50,343 nucleotides of DNA from Ktedonobacterales bacterium (GTDB lineage Bacteria; Chloroflexota; Ktedonobacteria; Ktedonobacterales; DATBGS01), in contig DATBHW010000017.1 in NCBI GenBank assembly GCA_036557285.1, positions 1 through 50,343 on the forward strand, read 5' to 3'. The position numbers were made by a program, and so were the translations under genes. The notes under the pieces were generated by a model. It did no database searches, was not told the DNA's origin, and saw nothing but the letters and a program-made list of their open reading frames with translations. This document shows, in pieces, positions 9,761 through 50,343 of the stretch. Positions within the stretch are counted from its first letter, which is position 1. Every line of letters begins with the position of its first letter.

Positions 9761-9848
9761 AACGCCTTCTCCTTATGTTAAGCGCCCCGCTGATCATACC
9801 GCCCGTACTCTTCTCATACTATATCAGCTTGAAGAAGTTCGTTCTGCG

Positions 9849-9877
9849 TGTACCGCCGCCGTCCCTGGCGGCGCATC
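9849..9877. repeat. Dispersed palindromic repeat, divergent copy
   Basis: A divergent copy of the TGTAGCGCCGCC...GGCGGCTCA repeat seen elsewhere in the window. Here it reads TGTACCGCCGCC, GTCCCT, GGCGGCGCATCA and can form a 7-bp stem. It touches the stop codon of the kinase gene at 9876 and could act as its 3' hairpin. Confidence 0.5.
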
Positions 9878-30947: not shown

Positions 30948-30983
30948 TTGTAGCGCCGTCCTTCTAGGCGGCAGGGGTGGGGC
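30948..30983. repeat. Dispersed palindromic repeat, divergent copy
   Basis: TTGTAGCGCCGTCCTTCTAG followed by GCGGCAGGGGTGGGGCC resembles the copies at 40.9 and 49.7 kb, including the GGGGTGGGGCC flank shared with 49705-49716. Confidence 0.5.
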
Positions 30984-34562: not shown

Positions 34563-35145
34563 CTACAGCGCGCCGGGGTCCATCATGAGCAGCACGATCA
34601 ACATTCGGGGGCCATACACGCCCTCAACGCGGCTCAGTTCAATGTCGCTGGTTGCCGAAGGACCAGAGATAAAGGTAATGGGCCGTGTCGCACTTGCTTG
34701 CAGGGTGGTGATCGCCCGCGGCACGAGGTCTACAATCTGCCTGGCCTGTACCACACACAGATGCGCGTCTGGTATCAGCGAGAGCGGGGGTAGACCGAAC
34801 TATAGGCATGGCCGCCCACGCGCGCGTACACCGGGCAGACATTCAGGCACGCCGAGCAGCGGATGCACTGGAGCGTCTGCCGCCCGACCTCATCACGCAA
34901 AACATGGGCTGATCGGTCAAGTCCTGGCCCCGCGCAATCGTCTGGCGAAAGAGGGCGCGAATCTTGTGGATGGCCGGAACCAGGATATGCGAGGATGACT
35001 CCCCGGCAAGCTGAATGATCAACTCGGCCAGATCGGTTTCAATAGCCGTGATGCCTGCCTGGGTCAGCGCCGCATTCAGCCTGAACTCCTCATGCGCGAA
35101 TCCAGCCTGTTCGCGCACCTGCCATACTGAATAAGATGTTAGCAA
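34563..35145 (-). pseudogene. Collapsed lutB-lutC remnant
   Basis: Remnant of a lactate-utilisation locus. From 35145 the frame reads [20 protein letters not shown] and IIQLAGE, then [12 protein letters not shown], matching the LutB/LUD N-terminal region. A frameshift near 34905 moves to the 4Fe-4S motif ([20 protein letters not shown], 34866-34807). Within about 20 codons the frame jumps to the very end of LutC (VQARQIVDLVPRAITTL, PSATSDIELSRVEG, stop at 34563). The start of LutB, its second Fe-S region and most of LutC are missing. The order and strand suggest one large internal deletion plus at least one frameshift and a 5' truncation. No function is expected. Confidence 0.72.
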
Positions 35146-35157
35146 GCGAGACGTGTT

Positions 35158-35199
35158 GCTTGTAGCGCCGCCCCCCGATTAGGTGGTGGAATCTCCCGG
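35158..35199. repeat. Dispersed repeat with conserved flank
   Basis: TTGTAGCGCCGCC followed by CCCCGATTAGGTGGTGGAA. The second part occurs, reversed, next to the repeat at 40830-40850 (TTCCACCACCTATCGGGG). The copy lies at the truncated 5' end of the lutB remnant. Confidence 0.55.
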
Positions 35200-40687: not shown

Positions 40688-41180
40688 GCTACCTTCCTGC
40701 CTTCTACAAGACACCATTTTCAGGGTACTCCGTGCGGCCTCTATGACTGTAGACCATTTTATCACGCATCTCAGTCCGCTGGCCTCCACACCCCTGACGG
40801 GCCGGTACATGGCCCTGGAAGGATGAGCAGGTTCCACCACCTATCGGGGAGCCACTTGTAGCGCCGCCATCTTGGCGGCTCAACGCTGGCCCGCCGCTAC
40901 GTTGGCCTGGAGGGCGAACGCGCGCCAGGGCGAAGCGTTGGCCGCCTGGAAGGCGGCGCTACAAGTGGCCCCCTGCCAGGCAGGATGGCGGCGCTACAAG
41001 TCACAGGTCTCGCTTGCCAACACCTCATTTTGGTGGAACGGGATGAGCAACAGACATGGCCCTGAATATGCCTGATGGGCTATACTATGAGTATTGTGCG
41101 TGGGATGCGGAAGGGCAGCGGCATATGTCCTGGCTCATGAGCGTCAGCGGAGAGCGCCGCGAAGGGATAAGAGTTCATAT
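40688..41180. other. 490-bp intergenic region filled with repeats
   Basis: The region between the divergent LLM and S51-type genes holds three copies of the dispersed repeat (40853-41001), the TTCCACCACCT flank at 40831, and a lone TATACT box at 41081 that might serve the S51-type gene. No gene is recognised. Confidence 0.6.
40853..41001. repeat. Cluster of three dispersed palindromic repeats
   Basis: Copy 1 (40853-40890) reads forward: CTTGTAGCGCCGCCATCTTG then GCGGCTCAACGC. Copy 2 (40931-40968) and copy 3 (40979-41001) are inverted. Copies 1 and 2 can pair over more than 30 bp as a large hairpin with a 40-bp loop. Each unit also carries its own short GCCGCC/GGCGGC stem. Confidence 0.75.
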
Positions 41181-49260: not shown

Positions 49261-50343
49261 CTACATCATCTCGCCCGGCTCCTCGTCCTCGTCGCCCTCA
49301 AGCTCGTCGTCACCAGGGATGGGACCAAAGGGGCGCGGCTGATAGGCGCGGGGGTCTATGCCCTGACCCTGCGAGGCAATCAGCCAGCAGCGTTCGCACA
49401 GCGGCGTCTTCCAACGCGAGGCCACCGTTGCCGGAGCGAAGCAGTATTCGCAGATGGCCCCGGAGCGCGGCTCGTGGCGCTCGAAGTACCAGGGATGGTC
49501 GTCAATCAGCGCCCCCGCTTCGCAGCCGCAGTCGTCGCAGAGGTGGTCGCCGCAGACGCATTCGCCCTCGCAGAAGACGCCGGTACACTCGCCCGCCACC
49601 GGCCACACCTCGCCGGAGCGCGCGCGTCCCGGCTGAGTGGGGCGTCCACTTGCAGCGCCGCCTTCCAGGCGTCCACTTGTAGCGCCGCCATCTTGGCGGC
49701 TCAAGGGGGTGGGGCCACCTGTAGCGCCGCCATCTTGGCGGCTCAGTGGGGTGGTGTCGGGCGGCGGCGGGGGCGGCGGGACCGGCTTGCCACCCTCGAC
49801 AGCGGCGGCGTGCTGCTCCAGCCAGTCCTGCCAGGGGGCATCGCTGCGCCAGAGGGCGTGCCGCTTCAGCCAATCGCGCCAGGCGCTGCGGCGTTCGGCC
49901 AGCGGCTTCCCTTTGTCGGCAAACATCAACCGGGCCGAATCGTAGAGGATCGCTTCCTCCGAGAAGGCGCACTGCGGGATACGCATGAGGCGCTCCAGCA
50001 CGCCCAGGTCCAGCGTCTCGATATGCTCGGCGGGCGTCACGCCCGGCCTCCGGCGCAGCGCGGGCGGCAGACGACGCTGGCGGCGCAGCTCCACGCGCCG
50101 CGCGCGCTCGTCAGGGTCCAGCGGCGTCTCCTCTGGCGCTGGCTCGTCGTCTGCGCCTGCGGCTGGCTCATCCTGAAGGGTGGCTGGCTCATTTCTCTGT
50201 ATCCCTATAGACAGTGTAGACACTGTAGACAGTGGAGGTTCTGAAGAGCTTCTCTTCTTCTCAAAAAGAGCATCGGTATGCTTCTCCTTACTTCTTTTGC
50301 TAAGTGAAGAGTTGAGACTGTCTACAGTGTCTACACTGTCTAT
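49261..50343 (-). CDS. Cysteine-rich protein, N-terminus beyond the window
   Basis: C-terminal 360 residues of a protein whose frame stays open to the right edge; a GTG at 50223 exists but has no ribosome site, so I treat the gene as cut by the window. Visible parts: DSVDTVDS and STVSTLSI encoded by the two arms of an inverted repeat; a helical basic region (RVELRRQRRLPPALRRR; RRSAWRDWLKRHALW); a Pro run; a Gly-rich segment made of dispersed repeats; then a Cys-rich domain (CTGVFCEGECVCGDHLCDDC and ICEYCF...CERCW) that should bind two or more zinc ions; and an acidic tail. The family is not recognised. Such S/T/V/D repeats are sometimes seen near primase-like phage or plasmid proteins. Confidence 0.68.
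   Translation of the reverse strand: MDSVDTVDSLNSSLSKRSKEKHTDALFEKKRSSSEPPLSTVSTLSIGIQRNEPATLQDEPAAGADDEPAPEETPLDPDERARRVELRRQRRLPPALRRRPGVTPAEHIETLDLGVLERLMRIPQCAFSEEAILYDSARLMFADKGKPLAERRSAWRDWLKRHALWRSDAPWQDWLEQHAAAVEGGKPVPPPPPPPDTTPLSRQDGGATGGPTPLSRQDGGATSGRLEGGAASGRPTQPGRARSGEVWPVAGECTGVFCEGECVCGDHLCDDCGCEAGALIDDHPWYFERHEPRSGAICEYCFAPATVASRWKTPLCERCWLIASQGQGIDPRAYQPRPFGPIPGDDELEGDEDEEPGEMM
49646..49745. repeat. Three tandem copies of the dispersed repeat inside a gene
   Basis: Copies at 49646-49671, 49673-49703 and 49715-49745 all read CCACYTGYAGCGCCGCC forward on the + strand. On the coding (-) strand they translate in frame as SRQDGGAT, SRQDGGAT and RLEGGAAS, so the repeat forms a Gly-rich linker in the protein. 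Confidence 0.8.
50207..50343. repeat. 27-bp perfect inverted repeat at the right edge
   Basis: 50207-50233 is exactly complementary to 50317-50343, with 83 bp between. Each arm is itself built of TGTCTACA-type units (TGTCTACAGTGTCTACACTG). The right arm reaches the window end and may continue. Both arms lie in the open frame of the Cys-rich protein. Confidence 0.8.

Follow-up and report, generated by a model that had tools for sequence, protein, structure and literature searches.

A REP family with cognate RAYT genes in a Chloroflexota bacterium, and its REPINs inside a MITE-like element with 9-bp target duplications

Introduction

The anatomy of REP units and REPINs has been defined in earlier work (PMC2817692, PMC3116915), and the units described below conform to it. 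With the REP/REPIN and RAYT combination (REPtron) of Pseudomonas, Stenotrophomonas and Escherichia (PMC2817692, PMC3116915), the system analysed here shares a GT(A/G)G head, a GC-rich hairpin, inverted doublets, hundreds of copies, a RAYT flanked by inverted cognate REPs, and several RAYTs per genome, each with its own REP type. It differs in that the host belongs to the Chloroflexota, that the heads include one GTAC and one GGAG type instead of GTRG, and that about half of the REPIN doublets are enclosed by a target-duplicating MITE. RAYT/TnpAREP subclass 2.7 of Quentin et al. 2018 (PMC6006769) has in common with the present proteins the NHVH, WQ and YxxQNP motifs, an Asp at the E100 position, a length of ~210 aa and long canonical GTRG REPs; the placement in this subclass is by motif only, the best sequence matches lying in Planctomycetota, Acidobacteriota, Verrucomicrobiota and one cyanobacterium.

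The GTAG-tagged repeats of Di Nocera et al. 2013, including GTAG-23 of Thermomicrobium roseum (PMC3733652), come from the same phylum in that instance and are likewise GTAG-tagged hairpins with dimers that are sometimes nested in palindromes, but the enclosing palindrome reported here is transposon-like, as judged from its 9-bp target duplications; the term 'target site' is absent from the text of that paper. The bacterial MITEs Correia/NEMIS, ERIC, RUP and YPAL (PMC2229807) share with the present shell a length of 100–400 bp, the lack of an ORF, terminal inverted repeats, target duplications and the capacity to fold, whereas the present element has a 9-bp duplication, a short imperfect terminal inverted repeat (~10 bp), no TA termini, a REPIN interior and no parent identified in the 2.4 of 5.1 Mb searched. 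The REP/RAYT combination is thus an already known type of system, of which we describe another member, in the Chloroflexota. The carriage of REPINs as cargo inside a target-duplicating MITE looks new and unusual, provisionally so given a partial coverage of the literature that left subscription journals mostly outside, and the closest published remark encountered places some GTAG and CGTC dimers inside palindromes (PMC3733652).

Materials and methods

The window is a stretch of 50,343 nt (contig C17 of genome G000; GenBank DATBHW010000017.1) from a Ktedonobacterales bacterium whose genome is a 5.1 Mb draft of 82 contigs with 3.7% contamination. Pattern searches were run on this genome with reversed patterns as controls. 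Results beyond the pattern searches rest on 2.4 Mb (~47% of the genome), in stretches partly picked for holding the repeat, and gene calls were ORF-based and crude.

Results and discussion

A large REP family

The repeat unit consists of the tetranucleotide GTAG, one C and a GCCGCC-N5-GGCGGC hairpin. The first-pass annotation, made from the window's sequence, had staked its repeat family on there being further copies in the genome, and the genome-wide count bore this out, with 494 exact copies of TTGTAGCGCCGCC against 2 of the reversed pattern; the full hairpin unit GTAGCGCCGCC-N5-GGCGGC was found 675 times (control, 0). Within 50 kb the five exact copies of TTGTAGCGCCGCC compare with ~0.002 expected for an exact 13-mer, while matching at three mismatches was uninformative (37 matches in the window versus 25 expected). 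GTAG was by far the commonest tetranucleotide preceding the hairpin (439 of 1750 loose matches in 1.22 Mb of sequence, with GTAC at 101). Chance GC-rich palindromes were ruled out by the reversed-pattern controls of 0–2, and a CRISPR or tandem-array reading by the dispersed, inverted copies with variable loops. In short, this Chloroflexota bacterium carries a large family of genuine REPs, which are short, palindromic and mobile.

Neighbouring REPs were paired in inverted orientation with GTAG outward in 205 cases, with GTAG inward in 33 and directly in 189, with modal spacings of 93–96 and 42–43 nt, so that the family forms inverted doublets at preferred spacings, as REPINs do. This geometry, the GTAG-tagged hairpin and the cognate RAYTs described below together support the REP/BIME-like structure first proposed for the repeats. 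No other genome searched belongs to the family of the window's genome, and a pattern search found the REP missing from nearly all of 100 relatives. Genome G003, of the same order, contains ten exact GTAG hairpins, mostly with GTCCC loops, and lacks a RAYT of the present group; these hairpins are possibly an old or independent REP population. Rfam gave no match anywhere in the window, and the element had no match among plasmid and phage records.

Copies in the window

The window holds the following copies and associated features.

9848-9872, plus strand: GTAC-type REP, GTACCGCCGCCGTCCCTGGCGGC; TTGTAGCGCCGCC with 2 mismatches
30948-30972, plus strand: lone GTAG-type REP with no MITE shell around it; TTGTAGCGCCGCC with 1 mismatch
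35130-35192, minus strand: decayed MITE with internal deletion, consisting of left end TTCCACCACCTAATCGGGG, half a REP and right-end tract CGTCTCGCTTGCTAACATC
40821-40829, no strand: left target-site duplication, GGATGAGCA, identical to 41041-41049
40830-41040, plus strand: MITE-like element of 211 bp with three REP units, ends GGTTCCACCACCTATCGGGG...CACCTCATTTTGGTGGAACG, terminal inverted repeats and an exact 9-bp target duplication
40856-40879, plus strand: REP 1, TTGTAG-C-GCCGCC-ATCTT-GGCGGC; exact TTGTAGCGCCGCC at 40856 (plus)
40941-40964, minus strand: REP 2, GCCGCCTGGAAGGCGGCGCTACAA, inverted partner of REP 1 in a REPIN at modal spacing; exact TTGTAGCGCCGCC at 40952 (minus)
40987-40999, minus strand: REP 3, hairpin incomplete, GGCGGCGCTACAA; exact TTGTAGCGCCGCC at 40987 (minus)
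41041-41049, no strand: right target-site duplication, GGATGAGCA
49650-49671, plus strand: REP in frame in ORF 49261-50223; TTGTAGCGCCGCC with 1 mismatch
49677-49700, plus strand: REP in frame in the same ORF; exact TTGTAGCGCCGCC
49719-49742, plus strand: REP in frame in the same ORF; TTGTAGCGCCGCC with 1 mismatch

All nine places originally listed carry the unit. The copy at 9848 belongs to a GTAC-headed sub-family and shares both head and loop with the REP that precedes RAYT gene L084 on its upstream side. The copy at 35160-35172 (exact TTGTAGCGCCGCC at 35160, plus) is a relic in which half a REP, lacking the complete hairpin, is joined to the end of a MITE. The relic (35130-35192) has an inverted match to 40987-41029 (86%). 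The feature noted at 40831-41001 is in fact the 211-bp transposon-like element at 40830-41040, which as a single strand folds with z = -8.6.

The placement of copies mostly between genes held genome-wide, where 32% of REPs lay deep within long ORFs compared with 71% expected under a crude ORF model, indicating a dispersed and mainly extragenic family, but not for the three copies at 49650-49742. These three in-frame REPs, within an ORF on the minus strand, would encode the linker PLSRQDGGATGGPTPLSRQDGGATSGRLEGGAASGRP, and they resemble the in-frame palindromic elements of Rickettsia.

The MITE shell

The flank shared by some copies, TTCCACCACCT-ATCGGGG (= TTCCACCACCTATCGGGG), occurred 125 times at up to 2 mismatches (control, 0) and proved to be the terminal inverted repeat of a longer MITE, in keeping with the earlier suggestion that copies had moved with neighbouring DNA. 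The shells are 127–460 bp long and end in RGTTCCACCA / TGGTGGAACY, with variants such as GCTAGAACY. Among 97 candidates, 34 had perfect 9-bp target duplications and 16 matched at 8 of 9 positions (shuffled flanks gave 0.4 and 0.1); the duplication lies one base outside GTTC...GAAC, and longer repeats fitted at no offset. Each of the 52 target-duplication-supported copies examined has 2–5 REP units, always in the same inner position; loops, interior orientation and inserts vary between copies. The interior runs one way in most 'CACC' shells and the opposite way in most 'CAAT' shells, with exceptions. Long copies (L134:2121-2368, L125:16382-16730 and others) contain a repeated palindromic segment, CCCTTCGGGAAGGG...CTCGCTCCCGTTGGTCGCTCGCGCGTCCCT, in the REP hairpin loop, which is a third nested layer.

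Of 46 further genomes in the order, nearly all lacked the shell end, and the relatives yielded one copy as a possible source of the shell. This 100-bp element (L326:1421-1520, in genome G016 of another family of the same order) ends in the same terminal repeats and is flanked by a target duplication matching at 7 of 9 positions; its interior is different, contains GTAG/GTGG and has parts that recur in G016, and it may be an independent case of a REP in a MITE.

No autonomous partner was found in 2.4 of 5.1 Mb, either as inverted shell ends with 9-bp duplications up to 8 kb apart or as any terminal inverted repeat with a 9-bp duplication at 0.6–4.5 kb, and the surroundings of PF01609 and PF00872 transposase genes held no element with shell ends. 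The only yield of these searches was an unrelated IS on contig C24 (L260:1370-2711) with a PF01609 transposase, terminal inverted repeat CAGGGCTATTTAA and 9-bp duplication TCCTGATGC. As no partner was found, the DDE class given to the shell is read solely from its 9-bp duplication. The superfamily of RAYT-type enzymes is reported to lack larger target duplications (PMC2817692), and the 9-bp duplication therefore points to a different transposase for the shell, probably of the DDE type.

RAYT genes beside their own REP variants

Searching the genome with Pfam Y1_Tnp returned six loci, three of which are RAYTs (L084 on contig C38, L085 on C12 and L086 on C55). The impression that no RAYT-type transposase is visible is correct for the window, and it arose because the RAYT genes lie outside it; the genome has these three, each adjoining its own REP variant. 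Against the NCBIfam profile NF047646 (REP_Tyr_transpos) they scored 81.6, 83.9 and 82.5 (cut-off 80), and their match to Pfam Y1_Tnp was partial, as is usual for class 2. The IS200-type profile NF033573 gave them 18–26 bits (cut-off 55), which places them outside IS200/IS605, and true IS200/IS605 copies (L081 and L083) are separate from them. The sole PDB match of L086 was 4er8, TnpArep, and in an alignment of the RAYTs to 4er8 and A1 the HUH motif (NHVH), the Tyr (Y179), the Asn (N183) and the GTAG-contact residues (W158/Q159/R168) were conserved, the roles of the contact residues being taken from PMC6006769.

L086 lies between shell-less, inverted REPs of the present GTAG family; L085 likewise has REPs on either side, with GGAG heads; and L084 has GTAC-headed REPs upstream, the only side on which recognisable cognate REPs were seen. 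Head and loop are linked genome-wide, the GTCCCT loop following 48 of 98 GTAC heads and 10 of 441 GTAG heads (Fisher p = 4e-31). Most likely, to judge from sequence, the L086 protein recognises GTAG and the hairpin on single-stranded DNA. The three genes form one clade (99/98 support), and L085 (L085:1129-1791) departs from its two sisters at Q95 (to E) and H101 (to R; E. coli numbering), positions reported as contacts of the GTAG head (PMC6006769), a pair of changes that possibly reflects altered guide specificity. Three sister RAYTs with three REP heads (GTAG, GTAC, GGAG), one of them changed at two reported head-contact positions, are a ready natural experiment on guide recognition outside the Proteobacteria.

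Relatives of these RAYTs showed 45–59% identity and belonged mostly to Planctomycetota, Acidobacteriota and Verrucomicrobiota, with one cyanobacterium among the best matches. Inverted flanking repeats of at least 14 nt were present at 8 of 32 foreign genes tested (control, 0), nearly all with a GTRGC-headed palindrome, and the one next to the gene of Kamptonema includes CGCCGCCTTCCAGGCGG, a near match to the hairpin of the present REP. Among 101 genomes, the sole one with the present RAYT group was also the sole one with more than 10 REP copies, namely the window's genome, a comparison with one positive genome.

Spread of the REPINs

Among 173 close REPIN pairs, 87 had recognisable MITE ends and 86 had no shell. 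At these 86, conservation of the flanks ends ~6 nt outside GTAG and a 9-bp repeat was found once (1.8 expected by chance), so that no target duplication is apparent where 9-mers alone were examined. With about half of the pairs shelled and the rest free of target duplication, a single REPIN family seems to have two routes of spread: on its own, through single-strand copying of the RAYT type, and as cargo of the MITE. We consider it highly probable that a REP/RAYT system together with a REPIN-carrying MITE making 9-bp duplications explains the repeats as a whole. To our knowledge, RAYT-driven movement of REPINs has been incompletely demonstrated.

The amplifying form would be the REPIN, two inverted REPs with GTAG outward, which the RAYT on contig C55, an HUH-Y1 nuclease, would most likely copy or move via single strands and without target duplication. 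A REPIN would at some point have been incorporated into a MITE with ends RGTTCCACCA.../...TAGAACY, like those of a DDE-type element, and the MITE would then have multiplied with the REPIN as cargo, its shells presumably moved by a DDE enzyme. Recombination among hundreds of REPs may exchange, invert and extend the interiors. In the window, 40830-41040 is a MITE of this kind, 30948 and 9848 are free REPs, 35160 is a MITE relic and 49650-49742 are REPs in frame within an ORF. Whether the RAYT and a DDE-type MITE act as two engines on one REPIN family, with recombination shuttling copies between the free and the shelled state, is in our judgement an even call; if so, the element would unite two classes of small bacterial repeat that are usually treated as distinct.

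The shelled half of the pairs might instead suggest that there is a single, DDE-type MITE system, the free REPs being decayed remnants and the RAYT genes bystanders, and relics such as that at 35160 show that shells do decay. We regard this as very improbable, for decay predicts neither the linkage of head and loop nor the flanks of the RAYT genes, one of which sits between shell-less inverted REPs, while a second head and loop type pairs with a second RAYT; the 86 pairs without shell or target duplication, with conserved flanks ending ~6 nt beyond GTAG, likewise speak against it. The converse, in which the RAYT does everything and REPINs were inserted into existing intergenic palindromes so that the shell is a target and not a mover, has been suggested for some GTAG/CGTC repeats within palindromes; it could draw on palindromes described as enclosing REP dimers in A. 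variabilis, T. roseum and H. neapolitanus (PMC3733652) and on the MITE-like L326, which has a different interior in another family of the order. It is very improbable, since the exact 9-bp duplications flank the shell and not the REPIN, and since right shell ends are nearly never without a REP (4 of 93), which makes the REPIN a built-in part of the MITE rather than something acquired afterwards, site by site. That selection retains the repeats as regulatory elements of RNA or DNA (terminators, mRNA stabilisers or gyrase sites), their copy number maintained by function and not mobility, is very improbable, because the strong hairpin (z = -8.6) and the depletion within long ORFs that would suit it stand against target duplications as evidence of insertion, three copies within an ORF, a shell end and a REP missing from nearly all of the 46 order genomes and 100 relatives, respectively, and no Rfam match, and because such depletion is expected for any tolerated insertion.

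For the REP/RAYT system with its REPIN-carrying MITE, the shelled copies have a particular use. The mode of REPIN spread has been difficult to settle because free copies leave no duplication to mark their insertion; shelled copies with exact 9-bp duplications fix insertion sites to the base, and they therefore offer a datable and countable record of REP dispersal.

Two further structures were seen in the window. A perfect 27-nt inverted repeat, ATAGACAGTGTAGACACTGTAGACAGT, lies at 50207-50233 and 50317-50343 and ends exactly at the window end, and a strong hairpin at 2339-2395, with 26-nt arms (88% complementary) and a 5-nt loop, is unrelated to the REP family.
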